Virus record (IMG/VR): IMGVR_UViG_3300035701_000362
Location: 1-20,461 of that record
Length of the DNA stretch: 20,461 bases
Source: a virus
Reading direction: 5' to 3' (one strand)
Shown: in pieces, positions 2,026 through 12,802 of the stretch
Layout: each line of letters opens with the position of its first letter
Position numbering within the stretch: position 1 is the stretch's first letter
Program-made: the position numbers and the translations under genes
The notes under the pieces: generated by a model
Databases searched by the model: none
Told to the model about the DNA's origin: nothing
The model's input: the letters and a program-made list of their open reading frames with translations, nothing else

Positions 2026-2781
2026 TCAGACCTCCTCGGCCAGACTGAGGGTTAACGTCCAGGTCGTCAGATGGAGATGTTCCCACTCCCAGGCCGTCGC
2101 GATGACATAGAGGGTCGCGTTCGGAACGTCCGAGTCCTCGCAAAACCAGAACGGGATTGACCATCCGACAAGCCGCCGGATTGTTTCGAACGATGTCTTC
2201 TCGGCAGTCCTGAACGTATATTGCCAGATGCCCGGTTGGTCGTGGATGACGACCGTCCGCTGGCCGCCGGCCGACTTCGTAATGACGCTCACGTCCTCCG
2301 GCGTCGCCGTCCCACCGATTTTGTAATTAACAGCCGGCTCAAAATATAATCCCAAGAACATCGGCCCGGCCTCGACGTAGAGGTCCGTGTTGGCGGCGTC
2401 CGAAATGAGGAGCCTCCAGTATTGATGGGTCTGTGCCTCAAAGAACGCGCCCATCGTCGTGTTGTCCACGGGGCTTAAGACCGCCGCGAAATCGGGGGCG
2501 GCCCAATGCCCCGCCTCATCCTCGTGGGTAGCCTGGATGGTGACTACCGCCGTCGCCGAGAAATTATTGCCTCGAATTAAAAATGCCGTCGCCGGAATAT
2601 TGGCGGCCCCGAGATCGGCGGTAAGGGTCTGATCGGTGACAACGGTCGTTGACCTCCACCGTCGGCCGGGCGCGCGCTTCTGCGTTTTTGTCGCGGGGAA
2701 ATACGTCTCCGCCGTCGAGGCCGTCAGGGTGGTCGTTGCCGCCTTCCATCGGTTATCGTATAGAAATCGACAGTTGGCCAT
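2026..2781 (-). CDS. distal tail-like protein
   Basis: This 251-residue protein is encoded directly after the tape measure gene, whose TGA is one base upstream of this ATG. It has no signal peptide or membrane segment and is rich in beta-type residues. The central part has HQYWRLLISDAANTDLYVEAG (from about residue 119), then GPMFLGLYFEP; the pattern 'YWRL.I.D..N.D.Y...G..FLG' recurs in phage proteins encoded just after the tape measure. The last third has many Trp and aromatic residues (SIPFWF, TAWEWEHLHLTTW). Position between tape measure and hub suggests a distal tail protein or equivalent that joins the tail tube to the tip complex. The start ATG has only a weak AAGAG-like upstream site, so it may be translated by coupling to the tape measure. 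The structural role is likely; the precise equivalence is inferred. Confidence 0.6.
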   Translation of the reverse strand: MANCRFLYDNRWKAATTTLTASTAETYFPATKTQKRAPGRRWRSTTVVTDQTLTADLGAANIPATAFLIRGNNFSATAVVTIQATHEDEAGHWAAPDFAAVLSPVDNTTMGAFFEAQTHQYWRLLISDAANTDLYVEAGPMFLGLYFEPAVNYKIGGTATPEDVSVITKSAGGQRTVVIHDQPGIWQYTFRTAEKTSFETIRRLVGWSIPFWFCEDSDVPNATLYVIATAWEWEHLHLTTWTLTLSLAEEV

Positions 2782-2782
2782 G

Positions 2783-5218
2783 TCAGTATGCTCTTATCGC
2801 ACGCGGATGAATTAACATGTTCTCCGATTTGGTTCCTTCCCGGATCGTCTTAGAAATGAACGTCTTCATCTCTTTCCCGTCGATATAGACGTGGTGGTGA
2901 TGGTGTTCTACTATTGTTTGGGCAGAGCCGCCCCGGGCCCCCCTTCCCATGATCGCCTCCCGGAGCTGGCGCGGTGAGCTGACGATCTCCGCCTCCCCGC
3001 CCTCGGCCACCTCGTATTCCTGGCCGCTGGCTTGAGACATGAGCAGGGCTTTTTGCTTGAAGATGGCCCCGGCCGCCGCGCCGATGGGCTGGGACCGGAT
3101 GATGGCGATCTGGACGGCCCCGGCCGCTGCCGTGATCGCGGCCAGTGCGATGTTGAACGGCGGGGGAAGCGCGGATAGGGCCGCCGTGACACCCTCGGCA
3201 ACGTTGATTATAGCCTGTGCGATAGCGATGATCTTCGCTTTTTGCGCCGCGGAAACCTCCAGCGCCCGCCGCTTCATGGTGTACTCGGCATCTAGGGCCG
3301 TGATGGCTACCTCTTTTTCCTCCTCATTCATCACGCTGTTATTGATAAGGTCAAGGCGGGCCTGGTATTCCTCATCCAGTAGGGCGAGTTTGTTCGTCAG
3401 ACTCTGTTGCATGGCGGCTTCGATGGCACCGAGTCCCTGTTGCGCGGCCGTACAGACCTGTTCTATTTTGCCGACCGTCGTATTCGCCCAGGTCGTCACG
3501 CCCGATGTGTCTTTGAGTGTCTTATTGAGATCATCAAGGAGTTTTTTATATTGTTTGAGCGAAATCATCCCCATGACGAGTGCCGCCACGAGCGCCTTTT
3601 CCGCAGTGGTGGCTGTCTTAAATCCCGGTCCCGTTATCTTGAGTTTGTTAACCATGTCCTGTATCGACGAGGCGAACGCTGATGTCGCTGTCTTGGCCTT
3701 CTTTTCCGCGTCCGCTGCCGCGTCGAGGTCTTTATGGATGCTCTCAAGTCCCTTCGCGTAAGCCTTGTCGGTGATGACCCCCGCCTTGAGCGCCGCGTTC
3801 AGTTTCATTTCGTCGTCGATGGCCTTTACCATCGCCGCGTGCATGGGGTTGTACTTGGTGATGATGTCCACGGCGGCCTTTGCCAGCGCCCCCTGCGCCT
3901 TTGCTGACTTGCCTGCCTCGACCCCGACGTCCTTCGTGGCTTTGGCGTTTGCGGCCATCGCCCTGTCGTAATCACCGATGCTCATGGCCCCGGCCTTCCA
4001 GGCCTTCGTCAGGGTGTCCTCCTCCGCCTTGAGCTTGATCATCGCGCCCAAGAGCGGGTTGTATTTGGCTACGATGTCGGCGGCTGCGTCCCCGAGCTTT
4101 TTATATGCATCCGCCGCTTCCTTCGCCGCCTTGATTTCGGCTGCCGTCAATTCGTGGACCTTATTCCCCACTTCGTTTATCTTCGCGGGCGCGCTCGCAA
4201 ACATCCCAACGAGCGCGGCAAAGTCAATACCGAAGACCTTCGTCAACGGGGCCGCTTTCGCAAAGGCCTTTCCCACCACGTCGATGGCGATCCCTAGACC
4301 TGCGTTGACCTTCGCGGCATGGTCAGCCTTTGCGGCCTCCAGCTCCAACGATAAAGTCAGTAATTTCAGGGCATCTGAGAAACTTCGAATAACCGGAAAT
4401 CTCTCAAGTTGCTCCAGAAATCTCGTGAATGCGCCGGACGCCACGAAATTCGACATGGCTTTATTGAGGGCCACGATAGCCGTGCCGAATCCCTCGGTTT
4501 CAATGACCGCTTTTCCGGCTTGTTCTTTAACCTCATCCCAATTGTTGGCAAGCTGTTTCAATGATCCGCCGAAAGTGCCAACCTCTCTTGTCGAGCGCCC
4601 GTAAAGCTTCTCCAGCTGGTCGAGCATGGACGCCTGTTTCTGCTCCGCCGTGAGGTTCTCGCCGACGCGAATCCCAACGCGGCCCAGCGCTCCGTAGTTC
4701 CCCTCCATCGCCTTCGTCACCATCATGGTCGCGCTGTGGAGGTCTATCCCCATCGTGGATGCCAGGCCCATCGCGCCCTTTGTCGCCCGGTCAAGTCCCT
4801 TCTGGTCAAGGCTTGTGAGCTGGAGAAGTAGCGCCTGGCTGGCCATGACCTGCTCATCCGTGTAGGTCGTCGCCTTTAATTGCTCAGCAGCGAATTTTTT
4901 ATAGTGCTGGATGTTCCCTTCGACGGTCCGGCCTGTAATCTCCAGGGCGGCCTTCAAGTTATTCTCAGCTTGTTCTGCTTCTATGGCGTTTGTGATGGAA
5001 CTCGCAATGACATCCTTGAGCGCACCAATCCCTTTTTGTAGCGCAGAGGCTACCAATGTTCCGGCTGTGAATTGGGCGAAGAGGCTGCCGAAAGGCCCGC
5101 TGGAGCCCCCGGCTTTGGCCGTCGTCCCGGCCGCCTTGTCGATGGCACCGTCGAGGTCCTTAATAGACTTCAGCGCACCGGTAGCATCGCACTCGACGAT
5201 ATATTTTATGTCCGAAAT
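2783..5218 (-). CDS. tail tape measure protein, probable ATT start
   Basis: This is the longest complete gene, 811 residues if read from ATT at 5218. It is Ala/Lys-rich and mainly helical. Residues 5-20 (after ISD) read IKYIVECDATGALKSI, a typical tape measure opening. Three helical repeats with a 70-residue period lie at about residues 378-574. A hydrophobic stretch at about 655-710 (IIAIAQAIINVAEGVTAAL, then an Ala-rich segment) matches the C-terminal region of lambda-like tape measures. Near the end is a run of five His (about 772-776). The start is unusual: the frame is open up to the upstream TAA at 5234-5236, but the only ATG/GTG/TTG-type codon is a TTG at 5056, with no binding site and a truncated N-terminus. 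GAGGAG at 5226-5231 lies 7 bases from ATT 5218. The gene follows the chaperone pair and precedes the distal tail gene, as expected. Product sets tail length and is ejected with the DNA. Confidence 0.88.
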   Translation of the reverse strand: MSDIKYIVECDATGALKSIKDLDGAIDKAAGTTAKAGGSSGPFGSLFAQFTAGTLVASALQKGIGALKDVIASSITNAIEAEQAENNLKAALEITGRTVEGNIQHYKKFAAEQLKATTYTDEQVMASQALLLQLTSLDQKGLDRATKGAMGLASTMGIDLHSATMMVTKAMEGNYGALGRVGIRVGENLTAEQKQASMLDQLEKLYGRSTREVGTFGGSLKQLANNWDEVKEQAGKAVIETEGFGTAIVALNKAMSNFVASGAFTRFLEQLERFPVIRSFSDALKLLTLSLELEAAKADHAAKVNAGLGIAIDVVGKAFAKAAPLTKVFGIDFAALVGMFASAPAKINEVGNKVHELTAAEIKAAKEAADAYKKLGDAAADIVAKYNPLLGAMIKLKAEEDTLTKAWKAGAMSIGDYDRAMAANAKATKDVGVEAGKSAKAQGALAKAAVDIITKYNPMHAAMVKAIDDEMKLNAALKAGVITDKAYAKGLESIHKDLDAAADAEKKAKTATSAFASSIQDMVNKLKITGPGFKTATTAEKALVAALVMGMISLKQYKKLLDDLNKTLKDTSGVTTWANTTVGKIEQVCTAAQQGLGAIEAAMQQSLTNKLALLDEEYQARLDLINNSVMNEEEKEVAITALDAEYTMKRRALEVSAAQKAKIIAIAQAIINVAEGVTAALSALPPPFNIALAAITAAAGAVQIAIIRSQPIGAAAGAIFKQKALLMSQASGQEYEVAEGGEAEIVSSPRQLREAIMGRGARGGSAQTIVEHHHHHVYIDGKEMKTFISKTIREGTKSENMLIHPRAIRAY
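3497..4087 (-). repeat. three 70-residue repeats inside the tape measure gene
   Basis: Three consecutive helical units align with a period of 70 residues. The first has AADIVAKYNPLLGAMIK, the second AVDIITKYNPMHAAMVK, and the third a diverged IQDMVNKLKITGPGFK; each is followed about 25 residues later by a 'KAG.. / .MGMIS ... Y' element (KAGAMSIGDYDRA, KAGVITDKAYAKG, VMGMISLKQYKKL). They are recognisable in protein only. Such units probably arose by duplication and would change tail length in steps. Confidence 0.7.
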
Positions 5219-5225
5219 TGGAGTT

Positions 5226-5231
5226 CTCCTC
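5226..5231 (-). promoter_or_regulatory. ribosome binding site that sets the tape measure start
   Basis: GAGGAG on the minus strand, just after the chaperone stop codon (5234-5236). With 7 bases of spacing it points to ATT at 5218. No ATG, GTG or TTG lies at a workable distance, so this site is the main argument for an ATT start. Confidence 0.6.
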
Positions 5232-5233
5232 GT

Positions 5234-5578
5234 TTAGCCACTTAATTGCTCCTGAGCCTTATTTCTCCGCTCCGCCGCGACGGTCTGGAACATGATGTGG
5301 ATTGAGTTCAGCGCAGACAGCGCCATCTTCCGGGCCGGTCCGCAAAATCTCACCCCCCGAAATTCTTCGGCAACGATTCCGGCTTCGAGCGTGAAGTGAT
5401 TCACGTGCTCGACGTACCAGTTCCAGATCCCGATCTCAAATGCGCTCAGCTTCGCCGATATCGCGTCCAGCCTGCAATTCACGCACTCCTCCGTAGATTC
5501 GCCTACCTCGTGCTGGTGATCTTCCGGCTTCAGCATCGCCTCCCACCGATCGGCATAGAGCGCGAGATAGGCCGTTAA
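5234..5578 (-). CDS. tail assembly chaperone, -1 frameshift extension (GT-like)
   Basis: This segment is in the -1 frame relative to the chaperone gene that ends at 5575. It is open from the slippery site down to TAA at 5234-5236. Read after slippage it begins LTAYLALYADRWEAMLKPED and adds 114 residues, making a fusion of about 248 residues. An ATG at 5536 could in principle start a separate 100-residue protein, but the nearby GGGAGG lies only 2 bases before it, which is too close for good initiation. The frame also continues smoothly upstream through that ATG. In lambda and most siphoviruses the G and GT proteins made this way bind the tape measure and tail tube protein during tail assembly. 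The location between tail tube and tape measure genes fits. Frameshifting is inferred from sequence and from the known behaviour of this gene family. Confidence 0.8.
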   Translation of the reverse strand, partial: LTAYLALYADRWEAMLKPEDHQHEVGESTEECVNCRLDAISAKLSAFEIGIWNWYVEHVNHFTLEAGIVAEEFRGVRFCGPARKMALSALNSIHIMFQTVAAERRNKAQEQLSG

Positions 5579-5979
5579 TTTTTTAGGAAGTATTCCGAGT
5601 TCCCGGCAAACTCCGCCAGCGCCCGGACGAGGACCAAAGCCACGGGATCGGTTGGCACGGTCTCACCGTCAACGACTGCTTCCGGCTGTTTGATCTTCAA
5701 GCCGAATAGCAAGGGCAGATATTTGTCCTTGTTCTCCCGCGTGCAGGGGAGCGGCTTCCCGTCCTCCGTCAGGTCCCAGTCATGGATCGCGTCGCTCACG
5801 GCCCGCCGGATCATGTCCGAGATTCGCGGAGGACGTATGCCGTCCCTGGATTCATTGACGTAATCCTGGACCGCATCAAGCGGGATGAACCCGACCTTGA
5901 ACGTGATCGAGATAGGCTCCCCCGTCGTGTCCAGCCAGTAGGCGACATCAGCTTCCGGCTGTAATTTCTTGATGTCCAT
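5575..5979 (-). CDS. tail assembly chaperone (G-like)
   Basis: A 134-residue soluble, mixed-charge protein with no membrane segment. It follows the two tail tube genes and precedes the tape measure. An AGGAGG lies 3 bases before the ATG, and the gene is 11 bases from the end of the second tail tube gene. The protein contains PISITFKVGFIPLDAVQDYV (from about residue 22) and ends AGNSEYFLKN, with the slippery heptamer lying on the last codons. The family is very diverse in sequence, so the call rests on position, length and the frameshift signal. Both the short product and the frameshifted product are expected, the short one in excess, to hold the tape measure and recruit tail tube subunits during tail assembly; neither is usually found in the finished virion. 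Confidence 0.8.
   Translation of the reverse strand: MDIKKLQPEADVAYWLDTTGEPISITFKVGFIPLDAVQDYVNESRDGIRPPRISDMIRRAVSDAIHDWDLTEDGKPLPCTRENKDKYLPLLFGLKIKQPEAVVDGETVPTDPVALVLVRALAEFAGNSEYFLKN
5578..5584 (-). promoter_or_regulatory. slippery heptamer A_AAA_AAT for -1 frameshift
   Basis: The minus strand reads C CTA AAA AAT TAA in the chaperone frame. Six A and one T form an X_XXY_YYZ heptamer in the correct phase, and the zero-frame stop (5575-5577) follows at once. Slippage by -1 continues with TTA ACG GCC into the downstream open frame. Confidence 0.8.
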
Positions 5980-5990
5980 GTGCCTCCTTG

Positions 5991-7352
5991 TTATGCGAGA
6001 TAATCCGCGCTCCTTGAATTCATAATCTGGCAGACGACCGGGACCAGAACGCCCGTCATCCCGATCGGCCCGCTATCCGGCACGAGCGCCCTTAAGACTA
6101 TCTTTGCCGGAATGATTTTCGAGTCGGCATACTCGACGTCCTCAATGATGAGACGCGGCAGCTGAAACTTTAGGTAGTAGTTGTATGCCCCTTCGATGGC
6201 CGGCCCGGTGATGGTCAAGTCCGCTTTCTTTTCCGTCCCGGCAATCCAGGCCGCAAAATACGCCGCATTCGCAGTATCCATCCTCGGGAACTCCATCGTC
6301 AGTTTGATGGACGGCTTGTCGTTTTCCACCGGCTCCACGATTGTCTGGACACCGGCGACGTGCTCGCTGTCCATCTTACGTTCGATTTCGAGCGTGAAGG
6401 ATTTGGGCCGAATAATGTCGCCGTCCACAAAGTCGTTCCCGGTCTGTGCGTTCAAATGGAAGACGGCCTGCGTAAACTTCGCTCGCGCGTGCGTGTTGCC
6501 GAGGACGGTCGTGGAAGTGAAGGCCGCCGGGAGCGCAGAATCGTCCACGACCTTGATCCCGCGCAAATTGAACGCCGCTTTGATAAGCCCCCCGCTCAGC
6601 GAGAACGTGCCTTTCAGCACTTTGAACGTCGGGACCGTGTGAATGGCGGTGAACTTCTCCGTCGCGTAGGTTCCGAAAATCCCAAAAACCGTATTGAGGA
6701 GAACGAACGAATGGAGATAATTGAGCGCCAGCCCGACCGCCGCCGCGGATGATGTGTACGTTATCTCGCCGGATAAGTCGGCCGCAAAGCCCAAGAGCGT
6801 GTCGGCCGCCGCCGCGTTATTCGTCCCCGTGTTCCACCACAGTTTGAAGTTGGCAGTCGTGGCAATCGTGAACTTCCGAGTCGTTGCGTTATAGGTGACA
6901 GTATAGGTCAACGTTCCGTTGGACAGAGGCTCCAGCCTGGCCTTAATTTCTGCACAGAGTGCCGTTGCCGCATAGGTCCCGTTGGTCAAGATTGCATTTT
7001 TCTCACCGCCTGCAGCTTCCTCAAAATCGATGTGATGGTTCGCGTTGCTCACGATAAAGTACATTCCCGGCAGTCCGGCCGTCCCCATGAGCATCGCCAG
7101 CAGAAGGTTCTCACGCCCGTCCCATCGGTAATCAAAGTCAAGCCCGAAGTCCGATGCGTTGATAAGCCCGACGTCCAGGTTCCCTTCAAACGCCGAAGCC
7201 GCCTCGTCCTCCATCATCTGCACCGCCGCCTTCGGGGACCCCGGATTCAGCGGCAAGAACCCCATCCCGGCCGCATCCGTATCGACAGCCGTCCCCCATG
7301 TTCCGGCCTTTTTGACCGCTGCCTTGTTTAGCCTTTTCTCAATGTCCGCCAT
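5991..7352 (-). CDS. tail tube protein paralog 2, with inserted domain
   Basis: 453 residues, preceded by GGGAGG 5 bases before the ATG. It is clearly homologous to the gene just upstream (7365-8402). Shared stretches include DIEKRLNKAA at the N-terminus, ASDFGLDFDYRWDG (66-79) and IIEDVEYADSKIIPAKIVLR near the C-terminus. The difference is about residues 92-210 (6723-7079), absent from the shorter copy, which has about a dozen unrelated residues there. The insert has YFIVSNANHHIDFEEA, NGTYAATALCAEIKARL, TYTVTYNATTRKFTI and TLLGFAADLSGEITYTS. I recall this pattern as a recurrent stand-alone or embedded domain in phage virion proteins. The tube subunit call comes from position before the chaperone pair and the paired architecture; the insert may project from the tail surface. 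Which copy forms most of the tube cannot be told from sequence. Confidence 0.75.
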   Translation of the reverse strand: MADIEKRLNKAAVKKAGTWGTAVDTDAAGMGFLPLNPGSPKAAVQMMEDEAASAFEGNLDVGLINASDFGLDFDYRWDGRENLLLAMLMGTAGLPGMYFIVSNANHHIDFEEAAGGEKNAILTNGTYAATALCAEIKARLEPLSNGTLTYTVTYNATTRKFTIATTANFKLWWNTGTNNAAAADTLLGFAADLSGEITYTSSAAAVGLALNYLHSFVLLNTVFGIFGTYATEKFTAIHTVPTFKVLKGTFSLSGGLIKAAFNLRGIKVVDDSALPAAFTSTTVLGNTHARAKFTQAVFHLNAQTGNDFVDGDIIRPKSFTLEIERKMDSEHVAGVQTIVEPVENDKPSIKLTMEFPRMDTANAAYFAAWIAGTEKKADLTITGPAIEGAYNYYLKFQLPRLIIEDVEYADSKIIPAKIVLRALVPDSGPIGMTGVLVPVVCQIMNSRSADYLA

Positions 7353-7364
7353 GTTGTCCTCCCA

Positions 7365-8402
7365 TTACGCGATGAAGCTCGTCGACCGAACGTTCGTCAC
7401 GAAAACCCCGATGGGCAAAAGCCCCGTCAGGCCCGTTTGCGCCACGTCCGCCATGACACCCCGAAGGACGATCTTTGCCGGAATGATCTTGCTGTCCGCG
7501 TATTCCACGTCCTCAATAATGAAATGCGGGAATTGGAGGTTCAAGACATAGGGATGAGTCGCGTCGGCAAGCGGCCCGGTCACTACGATATCGGCCTTCT
7601 TGTCTGTGGCTGCCGTCCATGCCGCAAAGTACGCGGCGTTCACCGCGTCCATGCGCGGGAAGTCCATCGTGAGCTTCACGCTCGGCTTGTCATTCTCGAT
7701 AGGCTCAAGGATGACCTGGCTCCCGGAGACATGCTCCGCGTCCATCTTCCGCTCGATCTCCAAGCTGAATGTTTTCGGCTTGATGATGTGGCCGGAACCC
7801 AATGTCGTGCCCCCGCCCGCGAGCGTGTAGTCGTTCATGCGGAACACGGCCTGCTGGAACTTGGCCCGGATGTGGGAATTGGCCGGAACGGTCGTATTGG
7901 ACAGCGTCGCCGTCTCGTCGGTGATGTTACTTCCCCGCAGATTGAACGCCGCTTTAAGGAGTCCGCCCGAAGCCGAGAACGTCGCCTTCAGGACCTTGAG
8001 CGTCGGGATGGTATGCACCATCGTCCCCTTCTCAACAGCATAGGACGCGAACAGCAGCGCGACCGAATCCTTCAGCGTGACCGTGTGCAAAAAGGCTCCC
8101 CCGCCCAGCGCAGAGGGATTCGTGTCAACGCCCATGAGGAGGCCGAGGAGGATGTTCTCCAGGCCGTCCCAGCGATAGTCAAAGTCCAGGCCGAAGTCCG
8201 AAGCCCCGAACGTGCCGACGTCCAGGTTCGCCTCGAACGCTCCGGCGGCTTCGTCCTCGATCATCTGGACGCTCCGCTTGGGCGTGCCGGGATTAAGCGG
8301 CAGGATGCCATTCCCCGCGCCGTCCAGCCCGGCGATGACCGCACCCCATTCTGTCGCCTTCTTGATGGCCGCCTTGTTAAGTCTTTTTTCAATATCGCCC
8401 AT
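7365..8402 (-). CDS. tail tube protein paralog 1
   Basis: 345 residues, with AGGAGG 5 bases upstream of the ATG. It is expected to polymerise in hexameric rings into the tail tube. The N-terminal 90 residues (DIEKRLNKAAIKKA, LPLNPGTPK, VQMIEDEAAGAFE, ASDFGLDFDYRWDG) and the C-terminal 130 residues (FSLEIERKMDAEHVSG, ENDKPSVKLTMDFPRMD, AAYFAAW) match the downstream paralog closely; the middle is shorter because it lacks the inserted domain. It comes after the tail terminator and a small unknown gene and before the second copy and the chaperone. Length is normal for a tail tube protein. An alternative is that one copy is the tube and the other a minor ring or surface protein. A long open frame on the opposite strand is a shadow. 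Confidence 0.75.
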   Translation of the reverse strand: MGDIEKRLNKAAIKKATEWGAVIAGLDGAGNGILPLNPGTPKRSVQMIEDEAAGAFEANLDVGTFGASDFGLDFDYRWDGLENILLGLLMGVDTNPSALGGGAFLHTVTLKDSVALLFASYAVEKGTMVHTIPTLKVLKATFSASGGLLKAAFNLRGSNITDETATLSNTTVPANSHIRAKFQQAVFRMNDYTLAGGGTTLGSGHIIKPKTFSLEIERKMDAEHVSGSQVILEPIENDKPSVKLTMDFPRMDAVNAAYFAAWTAATDKKADIVVTGPLADATHPYVLNLQFPHFIIEDVEYADSKIIPAKIVLRGVMADVAQTGLTGLLPIGVFVTNVRSTSFIA

Positions 8403-8411
8403 GTTGACCTC

Positions 8412-8612
8412 CTATCTCGATGCCTTTTTCTTTGCCGGACGGGATTCGGTTTTCGGCTCCCGTTCCGGCTTCACTTCGACGGCGTATCCATCCTTAATCC
8501 AGGACGAGACGACCTCGTCGGGGACGCCCAATGCCGCCATGTCGATGATGTGTCCGACCTTGAACAGGCCGAACTCCGTGTGCTGATTGCTGATCGCCCA
8601 TTTCACTTTCAT
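8412..8612 (-). CDS. small tail-region protein of unknown function
   Basis: I do not recognise this 66-residue protein. The ATG at 8612 is chosen because it lies one base after the TGA of the tail terminator gene and has a GGGGG stretch just upstream; a longer reading would start inside that gene. The first 50 residues are compact (WAISNQHTEFGLFKVGHIIDMA, WIKDGYAVEV), and the tail is strongly basic (KPEREPKTESRPAKKKASR). The shape, a short folded part containing 'F..G..I....G.....W...G.A' and a Lys-rich tail, is common among small head-tail or tail module proteins encoded near the tail tube. Neighbours suggest a role in tail assembly, but none can be assigned. Confidence 0.7.
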   Translation of the reverse strand: MKVKWAISNQHTEFGLFKVGHIIDMAALGVPDEVVSSWIKDGYAVEVKPEREPKTESRPAKKKASR

Positions 8613-8613
8613 G

Positions 8614-9099
8614 TCATACCCCCATGACCCCCGCGATGCTGACTCTAATTTTTTGATCAAAAAAGCCCATACCTTCGAGTGACAAATACCCGTCATCCGT
8701 TTCCGGTGAATCCTCAATCCTTGTCTCAACGGCCAGGACACCCAGACTTCCGGCCGCCCCGCTTCGCGAGTCCGCGTCGATGGCTTTCCTGATGTCCGCG
8801 ATACACCGTTCCAGCTTCGTCACCGTGTCGACGCTGTCCTTGACGATGCCCTTGATGGACACATAGAAGTCCTCGGTGTATTCGCTATCGTCTCCCGCCG
8901 CCCCGCTGAGTTCCACCTTACCGCCGGAGGCCGTGAACACCATGTAGGTCGGGAACGCCTTGCACTCGCTCCAATGGATGAAGCGCTTGGCCACCTCGCC
9001 GGGTGTGTAGAAGTAGGTGGCACCCGTCGAGATCCCCTGGAGGACCGCGACGATCCTATCAATGACCTGAAGTCTCAGGGGCGTTGCCGGCGTCGTCAT
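8614..9099 (-). CDS. tail terminator / tail completion protein
   Basis: 161 residues; the ATG overlaps the previous stop by 4 bases (ATGA) and has GAGG 6 bases upstream. The N-terminus, LRLQVIDRIVAVLQGISTG, is the amphipathic helix expected in minor tail proteins of the lambda gpU / gp17 type. Mid-protein it has FPTYMVFTASGG followed by a beta strand FYVSIKGIVKD and a helix TKLERCIADIRKAIDAD, with a final strand IRVSIAGV. That alpha-beta order fits the tail terminator fold, which caps the tail tube and joins it to the head. It lies immediately upstream of the tail tube genes, the normal place. The family is very diverged, so the call is from architecture and position. Confidence 0.65.
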   Translation of the reverse strand: MTTPATPLRLQVIDRIVAVLQGISTGATYFYTPGEVAKRFIHWSECKAFPTYMVFTASGGKVELSGAAGDDSEYTEDFYVSIKGIVKDSVDTVTKLERCIADIRKAIDADSRSGAAGSLGVLAVETRIEDSPETDDGYLSLEGMGFFDQKIRVSIAGVMGV

Positions 9100-9386
9100 A
9101 ATATCCTCACAAGAATTGCGTCGTGATCGGGCGAGGCATAGATGCTCCCGTCCATTGTCGTGACGGTAAACTGCACCAAATAAGTCGCGCCCGAAACGCC
9201 GCCGTGCATCATCTGCATGACCTGCTGACCGGAGATGACGACGTCTCCGTCCAGTGTTAAACCGGACGGTGAAACAGCCGCCGTCGCTGTAACAATCGCG
9301 TTTGCCGTAGTCACATCGGGCGGCCAGTAGTAGAGGCCGATCTTGAATTTCTCAACAGCCGCTTTTTCCACGATGAATTGAGTCAT
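9096..9386 (-). CDS. small beta-sandwich virion protein
   Basis: 96 residues, overlapping the repeat-protein stop by 4 bases and the tail terminator start by 4 bases. The pattern SGLTLDGDVVISGQQVMQMMHGGVSGATYLVQFTVTT, then MDGSIYASPDHDAILVRI, resembles a short Ig-like domain found in many phage neck or fiber-adaptor genes ('I.....V...L.GG..G..Y.V...TT..G......'). There is no signal peptide or membrane helix. Its tight coupling to the repeat protein suggests that the two act together, perhaps as a base or adaptor for it, but this is inference. Confidence 0.6.
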   Translation of the reverse strand: MTQFIVEKAAVEKFKIGLYYWPPDVTTANAIVTATAAVSPSGLTLDGDVVISGQQVMQMMHGGVSGATYLVQFTVTTMDGSIYASPDHDAILVRIL

Positions 9387-10996
9387 GATCTCCCTCTTGG
9401 CGTCCAGGCCCTTCGTCTTCCCGTATGGATAACGTCCTTCACTAACCGACCCCGATATGTCGGGAAGGCAAGTTCCTGGCCGGTTTCTATGATTAAATAG
9501 TCCGGCGAATCAGAGGACTGCGTTTGATAACCCTTCTGAACCTCAAGAATGAAGGTGAGATAGAGGATCGCCGCATCGCTTATTTGTTCCTGAACGCCTT
9601 CTGCCGCCACCAGGTCTATAATATTTCCGGGGAGCGTCGCCTGATCGGATACCTGCTCCTGCGTCCCCTCTTGGGCCGCCAGATGATGCTCTTGCGTCAA
9701 GGGCGGAGTATCCGAGACTTGAGTCTGTACCCCTTCGGCGGCCTGGAGATTATGCGTCTGCGTCAATCCTGGCGTTTCAGACGCCTGTTCCTGAGCTCCT
9801 TCGGCAACGACGAGGTTGTGAACCTGCGTCAGTGCGGGCGTGTCCGAGATTTCGAGCTGAACCCCCTCGTCCGGAATAAGGTCAATCGCACCCGCTTCTT
9901 CCTCGATTGTCGGCGTATCCGAGACTTGAACTTGTGCGCCTTCATCGGCGGCCAGGATGTGAGTCTGCGTGAGTGGCGGGGTGTCGGACGCCTGCGTCTG
10001 GCTCCCTTCGGCCGTGGACAAAATATGTGTTTGCGTGAGCGCGGGCGTATCAGACGCCTGGACTTGCGCCCCTTCGCCTGCGGTGAGAATGTGAGTTTGA
10101 GTGAGCGCCGGAACATCGGATACTTCATCCTGTGCCCCCTCAGCCGGGACGAGTGGAACCACTTGCTCAAGCGCCGGAGTGTCCGATGCTTGCTCTTGGC
10201 TTCCCTCTGCCGCAACGAGGATATGCGTTTGTGTCAGGGCCGGAGCGTCCGAGAGTTCTGTCTGATAGCCCTCCGCTGCCACCAGCTGATGTTCTTGGGT
10301 CAAGCCGGGTGTGTCGCTACCCTCAGTCTGAAACCCTTCAGCGGCAATGAGATCGATCGGGGGAGTCGCGGGCGTCAATGCTACCGCGTGCCCGCTACTG
10401 ACGGCTGACGTGAAGGTGCTCAGCGAGTGGGCGTCGATTGCATCCGTGCCCGCTTTTACCCCACTAAAGCAGGCAAGGGCGCAGTATGTGCTGTAAGCGA
10501 CAGCATAGCCGAGCGTGATGGTCGCTGTCGGATCGCTCCCGGAACAGGCGGTCGCTACGCCGCCTAAGGCATTACTGCCGATGATAAGGACCAGACATCC
10601 ATTCGTGACCGTCGGCGTCGGGACGGCGATGGACGTCCCCGCCGCGTTTATCTGCTGGTCCGCTACATTTATGGGGTTGGAAGTATCAACGCCAAGCCAA
10701 GCCGCCATCTCCCCCCGGTTCCGTCCTGTCGTGCCAAGAGTGAAAGTGAAGGTCGTGGCGTCAACGTCGGTCTGGACGGCGAATTTATAGAACAGGGCCG
10801 AGCGGGAGCTTGCCGTGTTGGACTGCGCTCCGATTATCGTCCAGTCAGCCGGCGGCGTAATTGTCCCGGACGTCGCCTTATTGACGACGTGCGCCAGCAT
10901 GAAGTCGCCGAGGGCCAGGCCCGCGGGCTTCGTGATGATGCAGTTAGACGAGTTCGCCCCAGGGCTGGCCCCGACGGATCGCAGCGTAATGGCCAA
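9383..10996 (-). CDS. virion protein with N-terminal beta domain and about 13 22-residue repeats
   Basis: 537 residues from a TTG start at 10996. AGAGG lies 6 bases upstream and no ATG is near; the upstream stop is 9 bases away. Residues 1-210 form a beta-rich domain: CIITKPAGLALGDFMLAHVV, TITPPADWTIIG, SALFYKFAVQTD, MAAWLGVDTSNPINVA, SAVSSGHAVALTPAT. This is a layout I know from surface and virion proteins ('i..P.g...GD.lla......t.P.gWt.......'). Residues 214-503 are repeats built on 'L.AAEG.Q.Q.SDTP.LTQTH.'. The last 35 residues (YRGRLVKDVIHTGRRRAWTPRGRS) are basic and not repetitive. The gene sits between the neck genes and the tail terminator, where head fibers, neck fibers or decoration proteins are often encoded. 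A surface-exposed, perhaps carbohydrate-contacting, role is possible but unproven. Confidence 0.7.
   Translation of the reverse strand: MAITLRSVGASPGANSSNCIITKPAGLALGDFMLAHVVNKATSGTITPPADWTIIGAQSNTASSRSALFYKFAVQTDVDATTFTFTLGTTGRNRGEMAAWLGVDTSNPINVADQQINAAGTSIAVPTPTVTNGCLVLIIGSNALGGVATACSGSDPTATITLGYAVAYSTYCALACFSGVKAGTDAIDAHSLSTFTSAVSSGHAVALTPATPPIDLIAAEGFQTEGSDTPGLTQEHQLVAAEGYQTELSDAPALTQTHILVAAEGSQEQASDTPALEQVVPLVPAEGAQDEVSDVPALTQTHILTAGEGAQVQASDTPALTQTHILSTAEGSQTQASDTPPLTQTHILAADEGAQVQVSDTPTIEEEAGAIDLIPDEGVQLEISDTPALTQVHNLVVAEGAQEQASETPGLTQTHNLQAAEGVQTQVSDTPPLTQEHHLAAQEGTQEQVSDQATLPGNIIDLVAAEGVQEQISDAAILYLTFILEVQKGYQTQSSDSPDYLIIETGQELAFPTYRGRLVKDVIHTGRRRAWTPRGRS
9488..10357 (-). repeat. 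array of about 13 66-base coding repeats
   Basis: Each unit encodes about 22 residues with conserved EG, Q, SD, P, LTQTH positions. Units 7, 11, 12 and 13 are the most diverged or of altered length. The DNA copies differ at many positions, so the repeats are maintained at protein level, not as recent exact copies. Confidence 0.85.
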
Positions 10997-11397: not shown

Positions 11398-11970
11398 TTA
11401 TTTAATTTCCGACCGTATCCCCACCGCGCCGCTCCCCATGATCTCGGCCACTTGGAGCACTACGTTTTTCTGCATCATGGCCGAAAGTATCGGCTCCCGC
11501 TCCTCGATAACCGAAGTAAACCATTTGGACGCCGGGATGTTGACGTCGAGTTTCGATTTCTTTGTGAGCGCCAGCCACTTGAACCGCTCCTCTTTCCACT
11601 TCGCGTACATGAACCAGGCCCATCCGCGCATCCGCTTCGTGACGGTCGGGTGGGTCGTTCCGCCCTCGTCCTGAATCTTCGCGTAGGGAACCGACTGTTT
11701 GCCCCCGATCCCCGTCCCGATGGCGATGGTCCACCTGTCGTCGCCGACGCCTATAAGCTGGCCGATGTTTCTCTGCATCATGGCGGTCTTTTTACTATGG
11801 TGGACGCGGGTCGATATCTGCCTGTCCGCCGCCGAGCGCATGAGTGCTTTGATTGTCTCAGCCGTCCACGATGTCGCCTGATACTTGTGCGCCCTGCCAA
11901 GAGCGCCCAGAACCTGGGTCTTTCGGATCGCGCCCGAGAAATCTGCGCGAAGGCCTATTCCATCCGTCAT
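11398..11970 (-). CDS. head-tail joining / tail completion protein (gp10/gpS-like)
   Basis: 190 residues from ATG 11970, chosen because it overlaps the connector stop by 4 bases (ATGA); a longer reading would run into the connector gene and looks Arg/Asp-biased. The N-terminal half has a helix with SWTAETIKALMRSAADRQISTR. It is followed by WTIAIGTGIGGKQSVPYAKIQDEGGTTHPTVT, typical of HK97 gp10 / Mu gpG tail-completion proteins ('YA...EEG....P.T..M..W'), and NIPASKWFTSVIEEREP, which takes the place of the 'iPaRpFL' motif. The neighbour is the gp6-like connector, giving the standard neck order. Its likely role is to complete the head-tail junction. The family is diverse, so confidence is moderate. 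Confidence 0.65.
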   Translation of the reverse strand: MTDGIGLRADFSGAIRKTQVLGALGRAHKYQATSWTAETIKALMRSAADRQISTRVHHSKKTAMMQRNIGQLIGVGDDRWTIAIGTGIGGKQSVPYAKIQDEGGTTHPTVTKRMRGWAWFMYAKWKEERFKWLALTKKSKLDVNIPASKWFTSVIEEREPILSAMMQKNVVLQVAEIMGSGAVGIRSEIK

Positions 11971-12527
11971 ATAGTGACCCGCTTGAATTTCGCCAGGATC
12001 GTCAGTTGTGCTTTCGTCAATGCGCCGTCTGCGTTGACCGAGCTCGTCGATCCGTCCGGCATCGTCCTTCCGCTCTCCCCCCAGCCCTGCTCTTTCATCG
12101 TCTTCCACTTCCGGGCGATGAGTTCGTAGCAGACGAGCGCGATGTCCGCCGGAATCGCCGCGTATCCCGCCGTATAGGTGACGGTGAAGTTCCCTCTGCC
12201 CTCAGCCCAGACTCCGTTGACCTTCCGCAGGCAGAACGCATCGATGACGAAATCCGCATCATTGCCCTCTGTGTATTCAGCCCCGTAGGAATCCACAACC
12301 GACGTGACTGCCGTGATGGGCCAGTTCAAAGGCTTGAGCGCCGACGTCCCGTCCCCGCTGACAAGTTCGCCCGTGTAGGTTGCGCTCAAAAGAATGCATC
12401 CAACCTCGCGGTTAATCTGCTCGGACACCGCCGAGATAATCGACGGTAGGATGGCGTCCCATGTCGTGATAGACTCCCCCGGCCAGAGGTATGATTTGAC
12501 GTTTGCGAGCGTGACCAGGTCTGCCAT
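11967..12527 (-). CDS. head-tail connector, gp6-like
   Basis: 186 residues. I take the ATG at 12527; a TTG two codons earlier is also open, but AGGAG is 6 bases from the ATG and lies in the last codons of the upstream gene. The N-terminus MADLVTLANVKSYLWP is the usual 'L.tle..K.yL' helix of HK97 gp6-type connectors. It is followed by SIISAVSEQINREVGC, LNWPITAVTSV (the 'P....v.sv' strand), GNFTVTYTAGYAAIPADIALVCYELIARKWK (the 'v.Y.aGy..iP.di..A......' segment) and a C-terminal helix ending with FKRV. All elements are in family order. The protein forms the ring under the portal. It overlaps the next gene by 4 bases. Confidence 0.85.
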   Translation of the reverse strand: MADLVTLANVKSYLWPGESITTWDAILPSIISAVSEQINREVGCILLSATYTGELVSGDGTSALKPLNWPITAVTSVVDSYGAEYTEGNDADFVIDAFCLRKVNGVWAEGRGNFTVTYTAGYAAIPADIALVCYELIARKWKTMKEQGWGESGRTMPDGSTSSVNADGALTKAQLTILAKFKRVTI

Positions 12528-12529
12528 GT

Positions 12530-12802
12530 TCAACTCCTCTTTTTCTTGCCTTTCTTTGCGGGCGCTTCGATCACTTCAAGCGTAACGTTCGGCCCAATCT
12601 TCACTTCCGGCGGGCCATCTATAGATTTGTCCTGATAGGCCCGGCCATTTCGGATGTACATGAATGCCAGGTCTATCGGGAGGTCATAAGACTTCCCGGC
12701 CTCATAGGCGTTCCGCGTCTCTTTCATCCGGACGCGCATGGTCTTTCCCGATGCCCGAAGCGCATTGACCCCGCCTGGCGTCTTGTTAAATTCAATCGGC
12801 AT
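12530..12802 (-). CDS. small head-module protein of unknown function
   Basis: 90 residues with GAGGGG 6 bases before the ATG at 12802. Residues 20-60 (KTMRVRMKETRNAYEAGKSYDLPIDLAFMYIRNGRAYQ) resemble a small beta-barrel of the 'v.f......y..Gd...lp...A..li..G.A' kind often encoded just before the connector in phage genomes. The end is strongly basic (PAKKGKKKRS). It is the first gene after the predicted terminator, so it may have lower expression than the capsid genes or depend on readthrough. The specific role is unknown. Confidence 0.65.
   Translation of the reverse strand: MPIEFNKTPGGVNALRASGKTMRVRMKETRNAYEAGKSYDLPIDLAFMYIRNGRAYQDKSIDGPPEVKIGPNVTLEVIEAPAKKGKKKRS

Follow-up and report, generated by a model that had tools for sequence, protein, structure and literature searches.

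The window analysed here, a 20,461-base virus record of the metagenomic collection IMG/VR, encodes two tandem tail-tube paralogues that are probably a plain (TUBE_A) and an outwardly decorated (TUBE_B) double-domain tube protein. These would be co-assembled in one tail, with the decoration being an exchangeable domain most likely devoted to attachment or docking. Beyond what the initial annotation had proposed from the sequence, the analysis points to swaps of insert alleles, hopping of the domain between virion proteins and a relation to the insertion domains of giant-virus pentons. Most of the shuffled decoration domains known from phages have Ig-like folds, and the fold predicted for this insert is a different one. 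The movement of the domain is visible in close relatives that have it, lack it or carry another allele, and in copies moved between tail-tube and distal-tail genes.

Gene organization and the tandem tube paralogues

The minus strand holds a head-and-tail module made up of terminase, portal, prohead protease, HK97-type capsid, head-tail adaptor, tail terminator, the two tube genes, small open reading frames at the tail-chaperone position, tape measure and distal tail proteins. The location of the tube genes, between the tail terminator and the tail chaperones and tape measure, is that of the tail-tube gene in siphophages. The features considered are listed below with their coordinates in the window.

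11967..12533, minus strand: head-tail adaptor (phrog_442), without the domain in the window
8614..9099, minus strand: tail terminator, upstream neighbour (PHROG 3907 and Pfam tail terminator, weak matches)
8407..8412, minus strand: Shine-Dalgarno GGAGGT of TUBE_A, from the sequence
7365..8402, minus strand: TUBE_A, tail-tube paralogue of 345 aa without the insert, fold assigned by alignment to TUBE_B
8094..8129, minus strand: empty site of TUBE_A, a 12-residue loop (92-103) at the insert position, from the A/B alignment and the loops of relatives
7357..7363, minus strand: Shine-Dalgarno-like GGGAGGA of TUBE_B, in the 12-base gap past the TUBE_A stop, from the sequence
5991..7352, minus strand: TUBE_B, tail-tube paralogue of 453 aa with the inserted domain
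7086..7112, minus strand: helix alpha1 of tube domain 1 of TUBE_B, residues 81-89, preceding the insert (DSSP of the model)
6726..7064, minus strand: inserted domain of TUBE_B, residues 97-209, predicted beta strands and one long helix (129-144)
6702..6719, minus strand: strand beta4 of tube domain 1 of TUBE_B, residues 212-217, following the insert (DSSP of the model)
2783..5056, minus strand: tape measure protein of 757 aa, downstream neighbour (PHROG 3336, 3.8e-8)
2026..2781, minus strand: distal tail protein (phrog_8610) of 251 aa, without the domain in the window

Two other genes of the minus strand deserve mention. The first (9383-10996) encodes a 537-aa protein consisting mostly of repeats of about 20 residues (..AEGAQEQASDTPALTQTHIL..); its homologues or same-position proteins in relatives range from about 470 to 1,170 aa, and one related contig (L017; relatives are designated by L numbers) has a second open reading frame related to it near the distal tail genes (L017 10895-12637). 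The second (3-2021), cut by the contig end, encodes a tail protein in which residues 150-277 are predicted to form a carbohydrate-binding module (Pfam CBM_4_9).

The tandem duplication proposed in the initial annotation is evident in two open reading frames that lie 12 bases apart, are 57-71% identical and align at both ends around the insert. Identity is 71% over residues 1-90 and 57% (4e-89) between TUBE_B 212-453 and TUBE_A 104-345, the C-terminal region of about 246 residues, and the only gap in the alignment is the insert site. The identical 20-residue block described near the C-terminus, IIEDVEYADSKIIPAKIVLR, was found in both proteins, and the extra segment, first placed at about residues 92-210 against a dozen residues in the other copy, could be refined to about 97-209 of TUBE_B against 12 residues. 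In the pairs tested dN/dS was 0.07-0.12 for TUBE_A and 0.06-0.16 for the TUBE_B core, from which we conclude that neither gene is decaying. The pair recurs in about 15 other IMG/VR contigs, where the A genes and the B genes form separate clades.

That the pair or the insert could be an assembly chimera had to be considered, given that the window belongs to a metagenomic collection. Both the pair and the insert site, however, are seen again in contigs of many samples, their frames being open and under purifying selection; this recurrence refutes an artefact, which we regard as hardly conceivable.

The tube of phage SPP1 is built from plain and extended subunits, gp17.1 and gp17.1*, the long form being a frameshift product with a C-terminal FN3 domain. 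The arrangement in the window can be likened to it in combining plain and extended subunits, but here there are two separate genes and the extension is an internal insert. A frameshifted extension of the SPP1 type was ruled out for TUBE_B, which has its own start codon and Shine-Dalgarno sequence.

Fold of the tube proteins and site of the insert

TUBE_B was modelled with AlphaFold2 from 54 aligned sequences, among them insert fragments taken from other proteins, which gave a pLDDT of 82.9 and a pTM of 0.80; a first prediction with 29 close sequences (pLDDT 47) was left out of the fold search. The model matched the tail tube of P74-26 (8ed0_A; Z 27.3, rmsd 3.0, 309 aligned residues), and the SH-Ab15497 tail protein and T5 pb6 (Z 20-23) were further best matches, while a chain of the T5 tip complex gave Z 19.5. 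As in the fused double-domain proteins of siphophages, the model contains two tube domains, each with a long beta2-beta3 loop and a flanking helix, the first stacking loop being of low confidence. By this model, TUBE_B is a double-domain tail-tube protein of the T5/P74-26 type, and TUBE_A is taken to have the same fold because it aligns over the whole TUBE_B core, in agreement with the earlier assignment of both genes. To the Pfam family PF18906 (Phage_tube_2) TUBE_B gave a borderline match, 27.2 bits with a cut-off of 27; TUBE_A had no match to it.

The tube subunits of P74-26 and T5 are described as having two tube domains each and forming trimeric rings (PMC10034513; PMC8718954), and rings of TUBE_A and TUBE_B, being of the fused double-domain type, would also be three-fold. 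T5 pb6 and P74-26 share with the proteins of the window the double tube fold predicted here, including its two long stacking loops (Z 20-27). The decorations differ: T5 pb6 has a C-terminal Ig-like domain and P74-26 none, whereas here a different domain is carried in the alpha1-beta4 loop of one of two tube paralogues, TUBE_B.

The insert spans 113 residues (97-209) where TUBE_A has 12. In the model, alpha1 (81-89) is followed by the strands and helix of the insert (96-200) and by beta4 from residue 212, so that the insert is predicted to be a separate domain in the alpha1-beta4 loop of tube domain 1. According to the account in PMC8718954, in the minimal tube of GTA both alpha1 and beta4 face the outside of the ring, and the YSD1 tube protein has its extra domain2 precisely between these two elements, packed against the outer sheet. 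This domain2 of the YSD1/Chi major tail protein is likewise beta-rich; YSD1/Chi subunits differ in having one tube domain, and shuffling of domain2 among virion proteins is not among the features described in the part of that source used here (PMC8718954). From the outer position of alpha1 and beta4 in GTA and the placement of domain2 at the same site in YSD1, we infer that the TUBE_B insert faces outward in this phage too. The suggestion of an independent domain in a surface loop was thus supported, the outward loop by homology to solved tubes. The opposite outcome, an insert buried in the tube core or with no domain of its own, did not occur: already in the weak first model (pLDDT 47) no other domain was as well supported as the insert, and single-tube phages seem to use an insert-bearing subunit in all their rings.

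The insert is optional and exchanged among relatives

Comparison with close relatives shows that insert and core have different histories. The window and its relative L008 share 98% protein identity at the N-terminus and 93% at the C-terminus, with only 63% in the insert; the corresponding values for L024 and L021 are 95, 59 and 91% (N-terminus, insert, C-terminus), and the situation is reversed between L027 and L025, with 80, 93 and 71%. At the DNA level, window and L008 are 85-98% identical upstream of the insert, 53-68% within it and mostly 75-100% downstream. In the same direction, dS rises from 0.54 in the core to 2.1 in the insert (window-L008) and from 0.44 to 1.61 (L024-L021), while it falls from 0.47 to 0.10 in L024-L020. 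On these sequence comparisons, insert alleles are swapped among close relatives.

The domain can also be missing. The B protein of L017 lacks the insert and is nested inside the insert-bearing B clade; its empty-site loop, QGATAAYLH, is the same in the insert-free L016 and nearly the same in L094, and QG[AG]TAAYLH or close variants are found in most A genes as well as in these three proteins. Single tube genes occur both without the insert (L028, L094 and L016; L080 looks alike, but its contig ends there) and with the domain at the same site (L070, L071, L072, L073, L055 and L079). The domain is thus optional and seems compatible with a whole tube, and the latter six relatives indicate that an insert-bearing subunit can probably build the entire tube alone.

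These observations bear on two elements of the initial annotation. Its proposal that one copy gained the insert stands in so far as a gain in B fits the conserved empty loop of the clade, a direction derived only from that shared loop, gain and loss being indistinguishable at the deeper root. The insert is not peculiar to the duplicated copy, as shown by the single-tube phages with the domain at the same site.

A search of assembled genome contigs yielded one relative, L080, on the small contig JALHVH010000077.1 binned as Candidatus Aminicenantes. Its tube gene is related and has no insert, the genes around it are highly similar (88% for the terminator), and the contig weakly hints at Candidatus Aminicenantes as host phylum. 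A tblastn search with TUBE_B and three domain copies against 50,697 phage records gave no match at that sensitivity.

The same domain in other virion proteins

The initial annotation stated that the insert had a pattern known from other virion proteins, and a profile search with the insert alone did find the domain in other virion proteins of the same phage group, including adaptors and distal tail proteins; wider scans raised the collection to 48 non-redundant copies. Besides the tube at the TUBE_B site and at a second site, the hosts comprise phrog_442 adaptors, phrog_8610 distal tail proteins, FN3-bearing tail proteins (L048), an SU10-type adaptor, tail fibres and podoviral neck proteins. 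Head-tail adaptors of the phrog_442 type carry it at residue about 55 in L023, L025, L026, L027 and L035 and lack it in the window, L024, L021, L017 and others, while the protein after the tape measure has 365 aa in L022, with the domain at 54-157, against 251 aa in the window. In the domain tree the host-protein label needs 13 changes, with a minimum of 5, some of the distal labels having been given from gene position or length only. The clearest move between genes is that seen in the tube insert of L026 and the distal-tail insert of L022, which are sister copies (100/97 support) with 73% DNA identity. Taken at sequence level, these data indicate that the domain has moved between virion proteins of five or more kinds.

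Some copies are placed differently. Tube proteins of 504-510 aa in L058, L063, L060, L065 and L039 have the domain at residues about 235-354, apparently in the linker between tube domains 1 and 2 as a separate insertion, a position assigned by eye; hhalign of this L058 family against TUBE_A and TUBE_B gave no alignment. In L061 the domain is present in an SU10-type adaptor (4082-5092) and in the next gene (5110-8310), matched to internal virion protein phrog_511, and because of this last copy the domain is not always clearly external.

Neither Pfam nor PHROG has a family that clearly corresponds to the insert. Matches of the insert alone to pAdhesive_6 and phrog_644 were weak and scattered and were taken as chance or remote, none of the 47 domain copies searched had a Pfam match near the cut-off to the Ig-like families Big_2, I-set or FN3, and in an 18-row alignment the conserved stretches were too few for a degenerate-pattern search. 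Ig-like domains of these three families are considered promiscuous in phages (Fraser et al., 2006, cited in PMC8718954). They resemble the insert in being optional, exchangeable and present on many virion proteins; the insert differs in the absence of an Ig match, in a predicted fold with a long helix and in being mostly an internal insertion. The head-tail adaptor of roseophage R4C has a peripheral Ig-like attachment domain (PMC10276861) and in this sense resembles the adaptors of L023 and L025, which also have an extra domain, a comparison made by description.

This distribution bears on the function of the insert. It could be a structural clamp rather than an adhesin, packing on the neighbouring subunit and stiffening the ring, as suggested by the insertion site shared with YSD1 domain2, which is described as folding onto the adjacent subunit (PMC8718954). 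We consider this quite unlikely: the domain is exchanged or lost while the host protein stays 88-98% identical, and a ring-specific clamp would not be expected in adaptors, distal tail proteins, fibres and other unrelated hosts, where the domain also occurs. Outward attachment or docking fits better with the optional presence, the exchange and the spread along neck, tube and tip.

A probable relation to penton insertion domains of eukaryotic viruses

In structural comparisons, the insert region of the TUBE_B model matched the penton of EhV-201 (8rbs_K, an AlphaFold model fitted to the map; Z 14.2, rmsd 2.3) and P1v1 of PBCV-1 (8h2i_bG; Z 12.2, rmsd 2.0); residues 97-209 also matched the mavirus penton (6g41_B) with Z 7.5, inconclusive if taken alone. 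The insertion domains of the three pentons thus share the fold of the insert (Z 7.5-14.2), with a profile match in the case of P1v1, but they sit in the jelly-roll penton of eukaryotic viruses, in another realm. TUBE_B was not considered to be a giant-virus or virophage penton itself, as the host protein is a tail tube and not a single jelly-roll penton, and the domain alone is shared.

Could this likeness be convergent? Identity between the insert and the penton domains is only 15-20%, the E-value of the profile search over the whole PDB is a modest 0.0074, and a scan with the P1v1 stretch for related or intermediate contigs found none. Against convergence, in that same search a profile of 47 phage copies placed P1v1 first among 177,635 PDB sequences, with the match (P1v1 residues 89-177) falling inside insertion domain I, which comprises residues 59-203 and 370-385 and to which the base of the spike is attached (PMC9617893), that is, in the same domain as the fold match. 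Moreover, the insert-P1v1 comparison exceeded shuffled controls both with hhalign (score 40.6, best of 200 shuffles 14.7) and as HMM score (23.1, best of 5,000 shuffles 10.2), and when the P1v1 stretch was used as query the best phage open reading frame was a carrier of the domain. The breadth of the profile matters: starting from a distal-tail carrier, phmmer did not retrieve the pentons from the PDB, and P1v1 was found only by the broad profile. We therefore regard convergence as rather unlikely, and common descent of the phage insert and the penton insertion domain as likely, though not proven, the sequence relation being of moderate strength. No statement of such a link was found in the literature searched, which covered few subscription journals.

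On balance we favour the idea that one unnamed family of surface modules, comprising the domains of phage tube, neck, tip and fibre proteins and those of giant-virus and virophage pentons, has crossed between two realms, and that in both it is found on one member of a pair of plain and decorated paralogues. If the penton link is true, a surface module would be common to viruses of two realms; one tail gene would connect very different viruses, since the insert resembles a domain on giant-virus capsid vertices.

Tube architecture and proposed role

TUBE_A and TUBE_B are probably expressed from a single operon and assemble together around the tape measure. Mixing of both proteins in one tube is suggested by the sequence of the ring-stacking loops, which are among the better-conserved parts between A and B (66% and 70% identity, with several other segments at 44-54%). 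In that case domains would stud the outer wall of an otherwise plain scaffold, at a density set by the A:B ratio. The domain may contact cell-surface or extracellular material, or dock accessory fibres, and an attachment function of this kind seems the most likely one; the domain appears dispensable for tube assembly and is kept, lost or swapped as a cassette.

There is room for a zoned tube, in which one paralogue forms the tube and the other a special ring, so that the domain of B docks fibres or a collar at one place, given that the alpha1 helix, with 60% identity between A and B, is nearly fixed inside each clade (95-97%). These clade-specific helices in separate A and B clades would fit such a division, and there are precedents for it: in T5, the tube-like p140 makes up one trimeric ring at the tip, which separates the pb6 tube from the distal tail protein and has the collar around it (PMC10038345), and the T5 tip-complex chain is the one that matched the TUBE_B model with Z 19.5; in PBCV-1, the penton variant with the insertion is located only at the unique vertex, where it holds the spike (PMC9617893). 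The conservation of the stacking loops between A and B argues against zoning, as does the existence of single-tube relatives, both carriers and non-carriers of the domain, which implies that a separate ring protein is not essential in the family, and we give this arrangement a minor chance. The natural single-tube and double-tube relatives make the purpose of tube decorations directly testable.

Other parts of the module also vary between relatives. The capsid genes of L025, L026 and L027 are about 30% identical to that of the window, with tube genes at 66-81%, and the head module appears to have been swapped independently of the tail. L028 matches the window with 93-100% identity in the neighbouring genes, 97.5% in the case of the tail terminator, but its one tube gene shares just 62% with TUBE_A, a pattern that we read as a local replacement of the tube region.
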